Shown one piece after another: positions 58,746-63,310 of a stretch of 64,000 nt of DNA. The notes beneath the pieces are model-generated. The model saw nothing but the letters and a program-made list of their open reading frames with translations, did no database searches and was not told the origin of the DNA. Where the stretch lies: the NCBI RefSeq assembly GCF_001306035.1, contig NZ_LGCM01000008.1:1-64000 (forward strand), given 5' to 3'. The position numbers and the translations under genes were made by a program. Position 1 is the first letter of the stretch. Each line of letters begins with the position of its first letter. Source of the stretch: Levilinea saccharolytica (lineage in GTDB: Bacteria; Chloroflexota; Anaerolineae; Anaerolineales; Anaerolineaceae).

Positions 58746-58775
58746 TATTAATAGACAATCTTTGATTAATCGTTG

Positions 58776-58823
58776 GCTGGACAGAACCTTCTGGGCGCAG
58801 AAGTGAGTCCAGCTTTAATTTTT
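58776..58823 (+). terminator. Leader terminator/attenuator of operon 3
   Basis: Outer stem GCTGGAC (58776-58782) / GTCCAGC (58807-58813) encloses CTTCT (58788-58792) / AGAAG (58799-58803), followed by TTTAATTTTT. It is preceded by ATTAATCGTTG. It has the same build as the leaders of operons 1, 2 and 4. Confidence 0.68.
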
Positions 58824-60507: not shown

Positions 60508-60539
60508 ATCTAGGATAAGCACCTTGTAATTGATATACT
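60508..60539 (+). promoter_or_regulatory. Promoter of operon 4 (shared GGATAA type)
   Basis: CTAGGATAAGC with GGATAA at 60513-60518, 15 bases, then TATACT (60534-60539). It is the fourth copy of the module and lies upstream of the OB-fold gene. Confidence 0.7.
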
Positions 60540-60575
60540 CTGATTGATAACTCAATATTCCTTAATCAATCGTTG

Positions 60576-60616
60576 GCCGGACAAAACCCACTGGGATCTG
60601 TCCGGCATTTTCTTTT
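60576..60616 (+). terminator. Leader terminator/attenuator of operon 4
   Basis: Outer stem GCCGGAC (60576-60582) / GTCCGGC (60600-60606) encloses CCC-ACT-GGG and is followed by ATTTTCTTTTT. Upstream, GATTGAT (60542-60548) pairs with ATCAATC (60565-60571). Confidence 0.7.
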
Positions 60617-60656: not shown

Positions 60657-61181
60657 ATGATAAACGATGTAGTTCTAGAAGGAATCGTGGTACGAGATCC
60701 ATGGAAATTTATGGATGACCTGTTCTTCAGGTTGGTGATCTATAGAGACAGTGATCTGCCTGCCAAGAAATTGGATCCGGAACGTGATGCAGGTGATTAC
60801 ATCAACGTCCGGGTAAATGGTGGAGCTAATGGGCTGATCCACATCCGACGCGGCATGCGATTGCGAGTGCATGGTTTCCTCCAGTCCCGAGATTTCCGCG
60901 AAAGCTTGGAGGAGTTTATCAACAAGGCGCGGAAATCCAAGAATTGTACTGACCTGACGGTGGATATCAAATCATGCGATTTGAAACAAAACCAGGTATT
61001 CATTGACCGAAACGTGGTAGAGGCAGTCGCCAGGCGCATTATTGTGTTGGATGCTGCCGCACCGAACGAGAAAAAAGCCAGATCAATTGAGAGAGTTACG
61101 ACTGGCAAGCACCCTGAAGCGGAAAACGATTCACGTGAGATGGAATCTACTTCTGGAGAAATTGACACAACTGCTGAATAA
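60657..61181 (+). CDS. OB-fold single-strand DNA-binding-like protein
   Basis: A 174-residue protein. Residues 1-95 follow the SSB pattern: INDVVLEGIVVRDP, RLVIYRD, DYINVRVNGG, RRGMRLRVHGFLQSRDFRE. The C-terminal 40 residues are acidic and Ser/Glu-rich, without the classic DDDIPF end. GGAGG precedes the ATG. It probably protects or routes single-stranded DNA in the element. Confidence 0.7.
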   Translation: MINDVVLEGIVVRDPWKFMDDLFFRLVIYRDSDLPAKKLDPERDAGDYINVRVNGGANGLIHIRRGMRLRVHGFLQSRDFRESLEEFINKARKSKNCTDLTVDIKSCDLKQNQVFIDRNVVEAVARRIIVLDAAAPNEKKARSIERVTTGKHPEAENDSREMESTSGEIDTTAE

Positions 61182-61282
61182 CTCATCCTATCAATAAACC
61201 GAAGGTGAGCATGGTTAATTATCTTTTTTGATTACCTGCAAAAGACCTAAGCGTGTACAAAAGATAGATGGATGGGTTCAGA

Positions 61283-61422
61283 CCTGAAGTGAATTCTTGA
61301 TACTTCAGGGTACGTGGAGGATCACAAGATGACGTCCGAATCCCTTGCATAAAGCAAGCTGGATTTCGAGAACTGTCATCGTAAGCTCCCATTGGTATTG
61401 GGAGCGAGTGATCCTCCTTTTT
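61283..61422 (+). ncRNA. Multi-branched structured RNA with terminal stem and T-run
   Basis: A hairpin CCTGAAGT/ACTTCAGG (61283-61290, 61302-61309) precedes a closed structure. P1 is GGAGGATCAC (61316-61325) / GTGATCCTCC (61408-61417). P2 is GATGAC (61328-61333) / GTCATC (61375-61380), extended by CTTGC/GCAAG (61344-61348, 61354-61358). P3 is GCTCCCA (61385-61391) / TGGGAGC (61399-61405). TTTTTG follows P1. This is a three-way junction ending in a terminator: a riboswitch-like leader or a small RNA. No coding frame explains it. Confidence 0.6.
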
Positions 61423-61541
61423 GTTTCCGGAAGTCCCCGGATAGTGGGCTTGCACTTTAACAAACAACCTTTTCCTCCCAGGAGGCGTCATGGCGTGCTG
61501 AGAAGCAGAAAGGTTCATATTACAAGGAGAAAACAATACTG

Positions 61542-61574
61542 TATGGGTGGGATGAGTCATTCATCCCACCCATA
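61542..61574. terminator. Perfect 14-base-stem hairpin
   Basis: TATGGGTGGGATGA (61542-61555) and TCATCCCACCCATA (61561-61574) with loop GTCAT. TATTCTC follows, so the T-run is weak. The surrounding 61580-61760 region has no convincing gene. Before the next start it holds GTTGAT/ATCGAC (61703-61708, 61715-61720) followed by CTTTTG. Confidence 0.55.
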
Positions 61575-61760
61575 TATTCTCACATCCATAGGGCTGCAAA
61601 TGTCAGCGATGAAGAAAAAGTCTTCACCATTGTCGTTTTCTGCCCTGTGTTTGTTCACGGGTAGTAAATAACGTCGGAACACTCCTGGTGCTTAGCCATG
61701 AGTTGATCTTTCGAATCGACCTTTTGTTAATCAACGTCGGATATTTCCACAAGGAGGATT

Positions 61761-62858
61761 ATGCAAAAAACACAAGACCTTACCCAAGCACAAGTTGAAC
61801 GTACTGAACGTGCACAATCTGCGATTCTCGCTGGCAAGTTCCAGGTCACCCGAACCAATCCCCACCAATGGACGGTCAAAAATGGCGACAAGCTACCGTA
61901 TGTAGTCTCGTTGAGACCATCTCAAGGTGATTCTGAAGAGGTCAATTGGGCGTGTACCTGTATGGACTATCAGCAGCGGGGACCTCAGATTCTCTGCAAA
62001 CACATTGAAGGTGTCCGCCTTTTAGAAGCGGCGCAACCACAAATTCACATAATTCAAGAAAAGGAGAGTCAAATGAATGAAACCATCCCTTCAAATGATG
62101 GGAACCTGAGCGACCGGCTGAGCCGCATCCTCTGGGAACTTCGCCAGCCATTGGACATGTCTCGCGTCAAACGCCGCCAAGCGCCAGGTATGGGATCCGT
62201 CCCATATCTGGAAGGATACGACGTTATTGATCGAGCCAACAGTATCTTCGGATTTACCTGGTCATTTGACTTGATTGGTGATCCGGTCATCGTGCGTTGG
62301 CAAAAAAAGGTGCTGATCTGGAATCAACATGAAAAACGCAAGGTTCCTGCCCTGGATGCCAATGGGAATGTTCAGACCGAGGAAGTCGGTTTAGTGTATA
62401 TCACTGGCAAAGTATCTGTCGATCTGGACGGAAAAACATACAGTCACGCCGATCTTGGTCGTTGTGTCTTCACTGGTGATACACCCGAAGCTCTTGATAT
62501 GGCCTTGGCAGGTTCAGCCACAGACTGTCTGAAGCGCTGCTTCCGCCAGTTGGGTGAACAGTTCGGCAATCTGCTGTATGACAAGGAAATTGCTCAAAAC
62601 GCAGGTATTGATCAAAACCGATCCAATGGCACCTCATCTACGGCAATTCCAACTTCGAAAGCAAATTCAATGCCTCCCACCACCTCTATCGTACGCAAGT
62701 ATGGGGATGGTGTCTCCGTGAATGGCAATGTCTCCGAACAAGAGGCATTTGACCAATTCAAAGAGAAATCCGGGAGAGTTCCTGCTTCAAAGGATGAATT
62801 GCGTAATTGGCTAGCCAGTCAACGCGCCACTCCGACGCCTGCATCCGTTGCAGCGTAA
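61761..62858 (+). CDS. SWIM zinc-finger and Rad52-like annealase fusion
   Basis: A 365-residue protein. Residues 65-85 hold a SWIM finger (CTCMDYQQ ... LCKHIEG). Residues 120-280 match the Rad52/Rad22 annealing domain: SRVKRRQAPGMGSVPYLEGY, IFGFTWSFDLIGDPV, then ALAGSATDCLKRCFRQLGEQ with FGNLLYD. Such proteins anneal single strands in phage and plasmid recombination. AAGGAGG precedes the ATG. It lies in one run with SSB. Joining SWIM to Rad52 is uncommon in my experience. Confidence 0.85.
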   Translation: MQKTQDLTQAQVERTERAQSAILAGKFQVTRTNPHQWTVKNGDKLPYVVSLRPSQGDSEEVNWACTCMDYQQRGPQILCKHIEGVRLLEAAQPQIHIIQEKESQMNETIPSNDGNLSDRLSRILWELRQPLDMSRVKRRQAPGMGSVPYLEGYDVIDRANSIFGFTWSFDLIGDPVIVRWQKKVLIWNQHEKRKVPALDANGNVQTEEVGLVYITGKVSVDLDGKTYSHADLGRCVFTGDTPEALDMALAGSATDCLKRCFRQLGEQFGNLLYDKEIAQNAGIDQNRSNGTSSTAIPTSKANSMPPTTSIVRKYGDGVSVNGNVSEQEAFDQFKEKSGRVPASKDELRNWLASQRATPTPASVAA

Positions 62859-62890: not shown

Positions 62891-63310
62891 ATGTACCAAA
62901 CGATTATCCTCATCGGAAATTTGGGAAAAGATCCCGAAATGCGCTTTACCCCTGGCGGACAACCGGTGACTACCTTATCGGTAGCCACGAATCGCCGTTA
63001 CAACGGTCAGAATGGACAGCCAGTCAAAGAAACAACCTGGTTTCGTGTCACTGTGTGGGGAAAACAAGCAGAGTCCTGCAATGAATTCCTACACAAGGGA
63101 AGCAAGGTGTTAGTGGAAGGACGTCTAACCCCCGATCCTGAAACTGGTGGGCCACATATCTGGGAAAACAACGGAAAGGTTGGCGCTTCATTCGAAGTAA
63201 CCGCCTCTACCGTACGTTTTCTTTCTGGACGTGAAGACCAGGAGGAAGCAGAACCCGCGGTAAATACTCAGGTTCCGCCAAACTTAGACCCAAGCGAAAT
63301 TCCATTTTAG
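62891..63310 (+). CDS. ssb: Single-strand DNA-binding protein
   Basis: A 139-residue SSB with the normal start MYQTIILIGNLGKDPEMRF, then WFRVTVWGKQAE and VLVEGRLTPDPETGG, and the acidic tip DPSEIPF. The tip usually recruits partner proteins. It follows the Rad52-like gene by 32 bases. Confidence 0.95.
   Translation: MYQTIILIGNLGKDPEMRFTPGGQPVTTLSVATNRRYNGQNGQPVKETTWFRVTVWGKQAESCNEFLHKGSKVLVEGRLTPDPETGGPHIWENNGKVGASFEVTASTVRFLSGREDQEEAEPAVNTQVPPNLDPSEIPF

Follow-up and report, generated by a model that had tools for sequence, protein, structure and literature searches.

Intrinsic-terminator attenuators are leader RNAs that contain a conditional terminator stem. Two other described systems involve genes for single-stranded DNA-binding proteins. 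In T4, gp32 binds its own mRNA in an autogenous control of this SSB, as stated in the excerpted text of PMC535899, and in two plasmids an SSB gene directly follows Frpo-like sequences, according to excerpts of PMC11541004. In the literature searched, no description of the leader RNA reported here was found, nor any study of how such elements are regulated in the Anaerolineaceae group.

The window, by which we mean the whole stretch of DNA that was analyzed, comprises 64,000 nt of Levilinea saccharolytica (contig NZ_LGCM01000008.1, positions 1 to 64,000 of the forward strand). Positions 61283-61422 contain a domain that we give about an even chance, judged from its sequence, of being a conditional intrinsic terminator (attenuator), which would form the first domain of a cis-acting leader of about 480 nt between an OB-like gene and the genes for Rad52 and SSB.

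The folded domain and its conservation

The domain has a minimum free energy of -62.7 kcal/mol, as compared to a mean of -35.8 (sd 3.8) for shuffled sequences (z -7.1), and none of the 200 shuffles was as stable. The reverse strand of 61283-61422 likewise forms a fold that none of 200 shuffles matched in stability (z -8.5), so the strand is not readable from a single sequence. The following features were identified on the forward strand:

61283-61309 (+), P0, a 5' hairpin of 9 pairs, from the fold; 96.5% of its cells are paired over 20 loci
61316-61325 (+), 5' strand of the closing stem P1, GGAGGATCAC, which holds a Shine-Dalgarno-like GGAGG, from the fold and covariation
61328-61380 (+), P2, a long arm with bulges and an internal loop, from the fold and alignments
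61329-61352 (+), a possible 7-codon leader frame, with its ATG 8 nt past GGAGG, from the sequence
61385-61405 (+), P3, a short arm of 7 perfect pairs, from the fold and covariation
61408-61417 (+), 3' strand of P1, GTGATCCTCC, from the fold and covariation
61418-61422 (+), the T run TTTTT, a terminator-like end immediately 3' of P1, from the sequence

The closing stem of 10 pairs and the terminal T run in the original prediction were both recovered, in that P1 consists of 10 perfect pairs (61316-61325 with 61408-61417) that enclose P2 and P3, and TTTTT immediately follows. The domain has the form of an intrinsic terminator, a GC-rich stem with a U run immediately after it, and P1 with its T run was not among the hits of an intrinsic-terminator scan of the window that admits loops of 3-8 only. 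The three-way junction was confirmed, while the separate hairpin at 61283-61309 had been omitted from the name given to the structure. Both arms exist, of which the short arm is perfectly paired as claimed and the long arm is not. Lowest-energy folds of single sequences from relatives miss some stems, such as P0 in L026, which uses another hairpin, and part of P2 in L017 (L-numbers, such as L008 and L054, denote loci in relatives that carry the Rad52-like gene block).

Conservation of the pairing was examined in a MAFFT alignment of 19 loci and in an alignment of these plus L054 (20 loci) that was fitted to a covariance model; the partial locus L012 was left out of both. In the alignment of 20 loci, 98.2% of the pair cells pair, as compared to 37-44% when the partners were slid, and 10 of the 43 pairs had changed on both sides, as compared to 3.0 in shuffles. 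The covariation score, 0.146 versus 0.094 when shuffled, was reached by none of 500 shuffles of this model-fitted alignment. Agreement was weaker in the MAFFT alignment, where 98.2% of 773 cells pair (37-44% slid), 6 of 43 pairs show double changes (reached by 6 of 500 shuffles) and the covariation score is 0.114 versus 0.085 (0 of 500), with further pair types not above those in shuffles (123 of 500). A check of co-variation among relatives had been proposed originally, and the pairs proved to be kept by compensatory changes. The shape has been kept by evolution while the letters changed, and we conclude that the structured RNA is real.

The conservation is unevenly distributed over the stems. 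In P1, 100% of the cells are paired over 20 loci and 8 of the 10 pairs are invariant, and a U-A to A-U swap was observed in L080 and L089, where both arms are one hairpin. Double changes were found in 3 of the 9 pairs of P0 (20 loci), and the arms P2 and P3 vary more than P1, with a mostly conserved P2 tip (CTTGC/GCAAG) from which L009, L017 and L018 each depart once. The best single case is L054, in which Rad52 is 54% identical and the sequences of P0, P2 and P3 are largely different, with every stem kept. Because P1 hardly varies and the arms are fused in L080 and L089, P1 (GGAGGAnCACArG ... GUGnUCCUCC) and the preceding hairpin are the fixed part, with a free interior. The T run reads ATTTT in L010, L011 and L025 and in the partial copies L012 and L071, has four T in L009 and is degenerate in L081.

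In L021 and L022, the unit is 66-69% identical to that in the window, as compared to 33-39% for the fourfold sites of rad52 and 31% for the spacer before the unit. In L019 and L020, it is 91-92% identical, with an identity of 40-43% at the fourfold sites of rad52, which are saturated; in L019, the values are 91% for the unit and 47% for the spacer before it. At fourfold sites of the upstream gene, the identity is 52%. The high identity in L019 and L020 may reflect local recombination of a cassette rather than selection. The copies at L019:5456-5615 and L020:5456-5615 represent a possible cassette exchange.

Several other interpretations were considered and rejected. The region had been described as containing no gene; it is overlapped by a 113-aa frame (-) and a 108-aa frame (+), both called mechanically, and neither is kept in relatives. 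A protein-coding role was dismissed, with the plus-strand frame open to the end in only 4 of 20 aligned loci and the minus strand stop-free over at least 113 codons in 4 of 20. The start of the 7-codon frame is an NTG in all 20 three-way-junction loci (18 ATG, TTG in L017, GTG in L021); a GTG is present in L079, and the start codon is absent in L080, L089 and L081. The start is thus kept and the peptide is not, which speaks against a leader peptide as a conserved product. The P1 strands might mimic the 3' end of the 16S rRNA, but the resemblance is not kept in L080 and L089. That the 3' strand of P1 can pair with the ribosome site of Rad52 is expected of any Shine-Dalgarno sequence, and no consistent covariation was seen by eye. 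ARAGORN identified no tRNA or tmRNA genes in the window, and no Rfam family matched there at the gathering score; the best match at E<=10 was a Tetrahymena snoRNA at E 0.055, far below the cut-off (1.9 in L021).

The rest of the leader and the transcribed strand

Our results support that 61283-61422 heads a leader of about 480 nt with conserved hairpins up to the Rad52 ribosome site. The T run is followed by the small hairpin M2, a linker, M3, a second conserved linker (TTCATA..ACA.GGAGAA), M4, the hairpins A and B, hairpin C with a repeat on either side, and the ribosome site. A whole-leader consensus was built from 12 of the 20 aligned rows. The parts of the later leader are as follows:

61452-61466 (+), a conserved unpaired linker, GCACTTTAACAAACA, from sequence comparison
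61466-61515 (+), M3, with the stem AACCTTT/AAAGGTT, from the comparison of loci
61542-61574 (+), M4, a perfect 14-pair hairpin, from the fold and alignments
61590-61646 (+), M5 hairpin A, with the 3' strand CTGCCCT, from fold comparison
61640-61664 (+), M5 hairpin B, which uses the same CTGCCCT strand, from fold comparison
61670-61741 (+), two AACGTCGGA repeats around hairpin C (61681-61703), from the comparison of loci

The exact degenerate pattern of the first linker was found in one of 396 genomes of the class, namely this one, in a sample that included few genomes with the element. The interior of M3 ranges from a 4-nt loop in L054 to a large branched insert in L037. In distant relatives, the stem of M4 is retained with its sequence replaced, and its loop is reverse-complemented between near relatives (the window versus L008 and others; L080 versus L089), which suggests a flip-flop of a DNA hairpin that forms in DNA at times. 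The copy at L018:4671-4672 is without the stretch that corresponds to 61502-61578 of the window (part of M3 and the whole of M4), and either this part is dispensable or the L018 copy has decayed. In Flexilinea flocculi (L025:4539-5699, -), an insertion of about 1.3 kb with a gene that we take to be TnpB-like is located inside hairpin A, near window position 61602, and the three-way junction before the insertion is intact.

Hairpin B excludes the base of hairpin A because both need the CTGCCCT strand. An overlap of 4-9 bases on the strand CTGCYCT was observed in all 20 loci tested. In a control of 12 of these loci, 23-201 of 300 shuffled tails overlapped as much, and since shuffled tails often overlap too, the alternative A/B pairing in M5 is only suggestive. 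Overlap and stability were jointly reached by 0-11 of 300 shuffles in 11 of the 12 loci; in L079, 55 of 300 shuffles reached both. The stability includes the neighboring hairpins.

AACGTYGG repeats precede the ribosome sites of three element genes, at window positions 61670 and 61733 and on contig C9 at 65608, 65664 and 65687 and at 68954 and 68977, with spacings of 63, 56, 23 and 23 nt. They are possibly a shared operator or UTR motif.

The transcribed strand was examined by counting G-U and A-C pair columns on the plus strand, in a consensus of 18 of the 20 aligned rows (without L012 and L018) and for pairs with a Watson-Crick majority. The counts were 12 versus 5 in the 61283-61422 domain (p 0.14) and 23 versus 8 over the remaining leader (p 0.011). 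Restricting the count to pairs that were predicted independently on both strands gave 22 versus 7 overall, 9 versus 4 in the domain (p 0.27) and 13 versus 3 in the remaining leader (p 0.021). Structures predicted from the minus strand gave 10 versus 6 (domain) and 18 versus 12 (rest), neither of which is significant. The excess of G-U over A-C on the gene strand favors an RNA transcribed in the direction of Rad52 rather than a fold of the opposite strand, with support mainly from the rest of the leader. This asymmetry is compatible with a folded plus strand of DNA.

Occurrence and the mobile element

A search with the downstream Rad52-like protein recovered 20 loci in genome contigs, including those of Leptolinea sp. 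HRD-7, Leptolinea tardivitalis, Flexilinea flocculi and Chloroflexi or Anaerolineaceae MAGs; the oddly labelled loci (a Micrarchaeota MAG, a Bacteroidota MAG) are taken for binning errors, and L002-L007 were judged to be duplicates of other loci. The covariance-model search envisaged in the original prediction located the RNA unit in 15 of 147 Anaerolineaceae genomes, at 18 places, and a comparison with the places of the protein matches showed that all 18 precede the same Rad52-like gene. Among 400 genomes drawn from the order Anaerolineales, 13 matched the model, all 13 of which belong to the Anaerolineaceae. These searches of more than 40 genomes (147 of the family, 400 of the order) used stricter filters, with which weak matches are lost.

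The Rad52 core was identified at 27 places in 22 of the 147 family genomes, of which 18 have the full three-way junction, one a match cut by a contig end (L071), four a reduced form, three a different hairpin and one a contig end (L085). In the reduced form, found in the distant loci L079, L080, L089 and L081, the closing stem is kept and the two arms are fused into one hairpin; a hairpin at the place of P0 is also present in all four, and the covariance model gives only weak matches in L079, L080 and L089 (E 0.0057 to 1.2e-5). The unit is replaced by a different strong hairpin without a T run in L037/L082, L083 and L090. No model match was obtained for L081, L083, L090 and L037, which were compared by eye on their folds. 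The plasmid and phage collections contained no match to the RNA, and viral contigs contained no relatives of the Rad52-like protein and no exact junction patterns; the linker pattern had 13 matches in viral contigs, no more than a rough chance estimate. The structured RNA is real, specific to a mobile element of the Anaerolineaceae and outside every Rfam family.

The genes that flank the leader are as follows:

60657-61181 (+), the upstream gene, 174 aa, syntenic in relatives, with no Pfam family at E<=0.01; we presume by eye that it is OB/SSB-like
61761-62858 (+), the Rad52 gene, with PF04098 (E 5.7e-16) as the sole Pfam family matched
62891-63310 (+), the SSB gene, PF00436 (E 4.4e-28)

The downstream gene had been named SWIM-Rad52, of which the Rad52 part agrees with Pfam and the SWIM part had no Pfam match. 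These genes belong to a block at about 58.9-73.5 kb that is syntenic across relatives and encodes a prepilin peptidase (PF01478, just above the cut-off), TadE (PF07811), the OB-like protein, Rad52, SSB, RadC, the DNA polymerase III beta subunit and a methyltransferase/helicase. Two T2SSE ATPases and a tyrosine integrase (96275-97450 of the contig) are encoded elsewhere in the element. Because of the integrase and the patchy, near-identical distribution, we infer that the gene block is part of an integrative element. In this genome, the element also carries a BREX set with AbiL-like genes. The BREX cargo at 75871-90778 of contig C9 (L034/L035) includes BrxC and BrxL, with PglX split over two frames at 82522-84600 and 84707-87151 (profile positions 663-1311 and 1-658), and an AbiL-like pair (AbiLi and AbiLii models) is located within the BREX island at 80488-82417. 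In L. tardivitalis, distant AbiL homologs are present elsewhere, near its own copy of the gene block. A 37-nt direct repeat with 81% identity was observed at window positions 58759-58795 and 60559-60595, before the prepilin-peptidase and OB-like genes, and a terminator-like hairpin is located at the end of the second copy.

In the 12 P0-carrying loci measured, P0 is separated from the upstream stop codon by a gap of 36-194 nt, with 36 nt in L054, and the gap to the hairpin is 98-108 nt in the three loci with the other hairpin. Since no sigma-70-like promoter was found in this gap in the 5 loci scanned, for sigma-70-like sites only, transcription probably arrives from upstream. No -35/-10 pair was found at 61182-61760 on either strand of the window, and a single minus-strand -35/-10 site in L054 is at chance level (1 found, 1.0 expected). 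A promoter-like match before the OB-like gene, at 60530-60559, is within chance numbers.

Possible functions and comparison to known systems

Under the attenuator reading, RNA polymerase coming from upstream would make P0, next the 5' strand of P1 and next the arms. If P1 closes, the stem and U run would end the transcript; if its 5' strand is held, read-through into Rad52 and SSB would follow. The strand would most simply be held by a ribosome at GGAGG-N8-AUG, or else by a protein of the element (SSB, OB-like or Rad52). Termination, read-through and a controlling agent are what we infer from the stem with its U run and from the Shine-Dalgarno-like strand, which are seen in the sequence only. 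Control by a ribosome would not be general, because L080, L089 and L081 have no start codon past GGAGG; it fits only those loci that have the three-way junction. If the later leader is RNA, transcription must sometimes pass P1, because the T run is immediately followed by further conserved structure.

In favor of attenuation, P1 is retained where the arms fuse into one, the identity of the unit in L021 and L022 exceeds that of the rad52 fourfold sites, the fold lies far beyond shuffles and covaries over 20 loci, all 18 family copies precede Rad52, and G-U exceeds A-C on the gene strand. It is weakened by the T run, which is broken by an A in five copies, short in L009 and poor in L081, by the different hairpin without a T run in L037, L083 and L090, by an almost invariant stem sequence that would be needless for a plain terminator, and by the terminator scan, which did not return P1 with its limit on loops. 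Furthermore, the G-U excess is not significant in the domain alone and is weak on minus-strand structures, and folding of the single sequence gives no advantage to the plus strand. Inspection by eye showed no anti-terminator partner or alternative structure that excludes P1.

More tentatively, the whole of 61283-61760 may be a single large regulatory RNA, specific to the element, in which two decisions are made. One would fall at the P0/P1 terminator, which includes a ribosome-site strand, and the other at hairpins A and B, which compete for a common strand. Together they would match the timing of the ssDNA-annealing and SSB genes to the transfer or integration of the element, with domains as exchangeable cassettes around fixed linkers.

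It is unlikely that the structure is a simple, unregulated constitutive terminator of the upstream gene with a large folded loop. The stem and U run, the short gap to the upstream stop codon in L054 (36 nt) and the substitution by another strong hairpin in three relatives would agree with this, but the conservation of the unit exceeds that of fourfold sites, its stem hardly varies, and conserved structured sequence follows directly, with no sigma-70-like plus-strand promoter seen between.

Autogenous control, in which an ssDNA-binding protein of the element (SSB, OB-like or Rad52) would bind the leader in analogy to gp32 (PMC535899, as excerpted), is rather improbable as the explanation, and it is compatible with attenuation, not opposed to it. 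The downstream genes encode Rad52- and SSB-family proteins, and conserved unpaired A-rich linkers are present between the hairpins.

We give an equally low probability to an independent or processed sRNA of about 140 nt (P0, three-way junction and U tail) that acts in trans. Its compact fold, 5' hairpin and U tail and the cassette-like jump in identity at the unit in L019 (91% versus 47% in the spacer) would suit such a molecule, but no sigma-70-like promoter was seen between stop codon and P0 in the 5 loci scanned for such sites, all 18 family copies stay before Rad52, and the arm sequences able to pair with targets vary. The original proposal of a riboswitch-type leader or an independent sRNA is upheld only as to the leader type, which is well supported, whereas the sRNA and a ligand riboswitch are unsupported: no Rfam riboswitch class matched, and the arms vary more than P1 and are one hairpin in 4 relatives.

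Least probable is a function at the DNA level, as a single-stranded promoter or initiation site of the Frpo/ssi type or a transfer origin in a leading region adjacent to Rad52 and SSB, for although the setting resembles the leading regions with Frpo-like sequences before SSB genes (excerpts of PMC11541004) and the M4 loop flips suggest a hairpin in DNA, there is no -35/-10 pair at 61182-61760 on either strand, the L054 site is at chance level, the wobble asymmetry counts against a folded opposite strand (the plus DNA strand being unaffected), and no relaxase was found in 20 distinct proteins scanned with Pfam, which are part of the genes of the element.

The leader RNA offers a testable control point for an element with Tad/type II secretion-like genes and its own Rad52, SSB, RadC and sliding clamp, here with BREX too. 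Tests are feasible in two named-genome strains that carry it, Flexilinea flocculi TC1, with the insertion in the later part, and Leptolinea tardivitalis YMTK-2. The contrast between the almost invariant stem and the swappable or losable arms distinguishes the part of the RNA that does the work from the part that serves as scaffold.

Among known systems, the leader resembles the candidate structured RNAs of bacteria from comparative genomics, as a covarying motif before one gene family, and differs from catalogued RNAs in having no Rfam family at the gathering score. With the Frpo/ssi single-stranded DNA promoters, as described in the excerpts of PMC11541004, it shares a hairpin-rich non-coding stretch before genes that include SSB in a mobile element; unlike these, it is without -35/-10 sites in the window, and its wobble pattern favors the gene strand. 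As in the T4 gene 32 leader (PMC535899, excerpted text), it precedes a gene set with an ssDNA-binding protein, but here several hairpins extend over about 480 nt. Attenuators differ in that P1 closes a three-way junction of about 80 nt instead of a short loop, with no anti-terminator partner found and a T run that is not universal; like them, the leader combines a stem with an immediate U run and genes on the same strand after it, here with a Shine-Dalgarno-like sequence within the stem.
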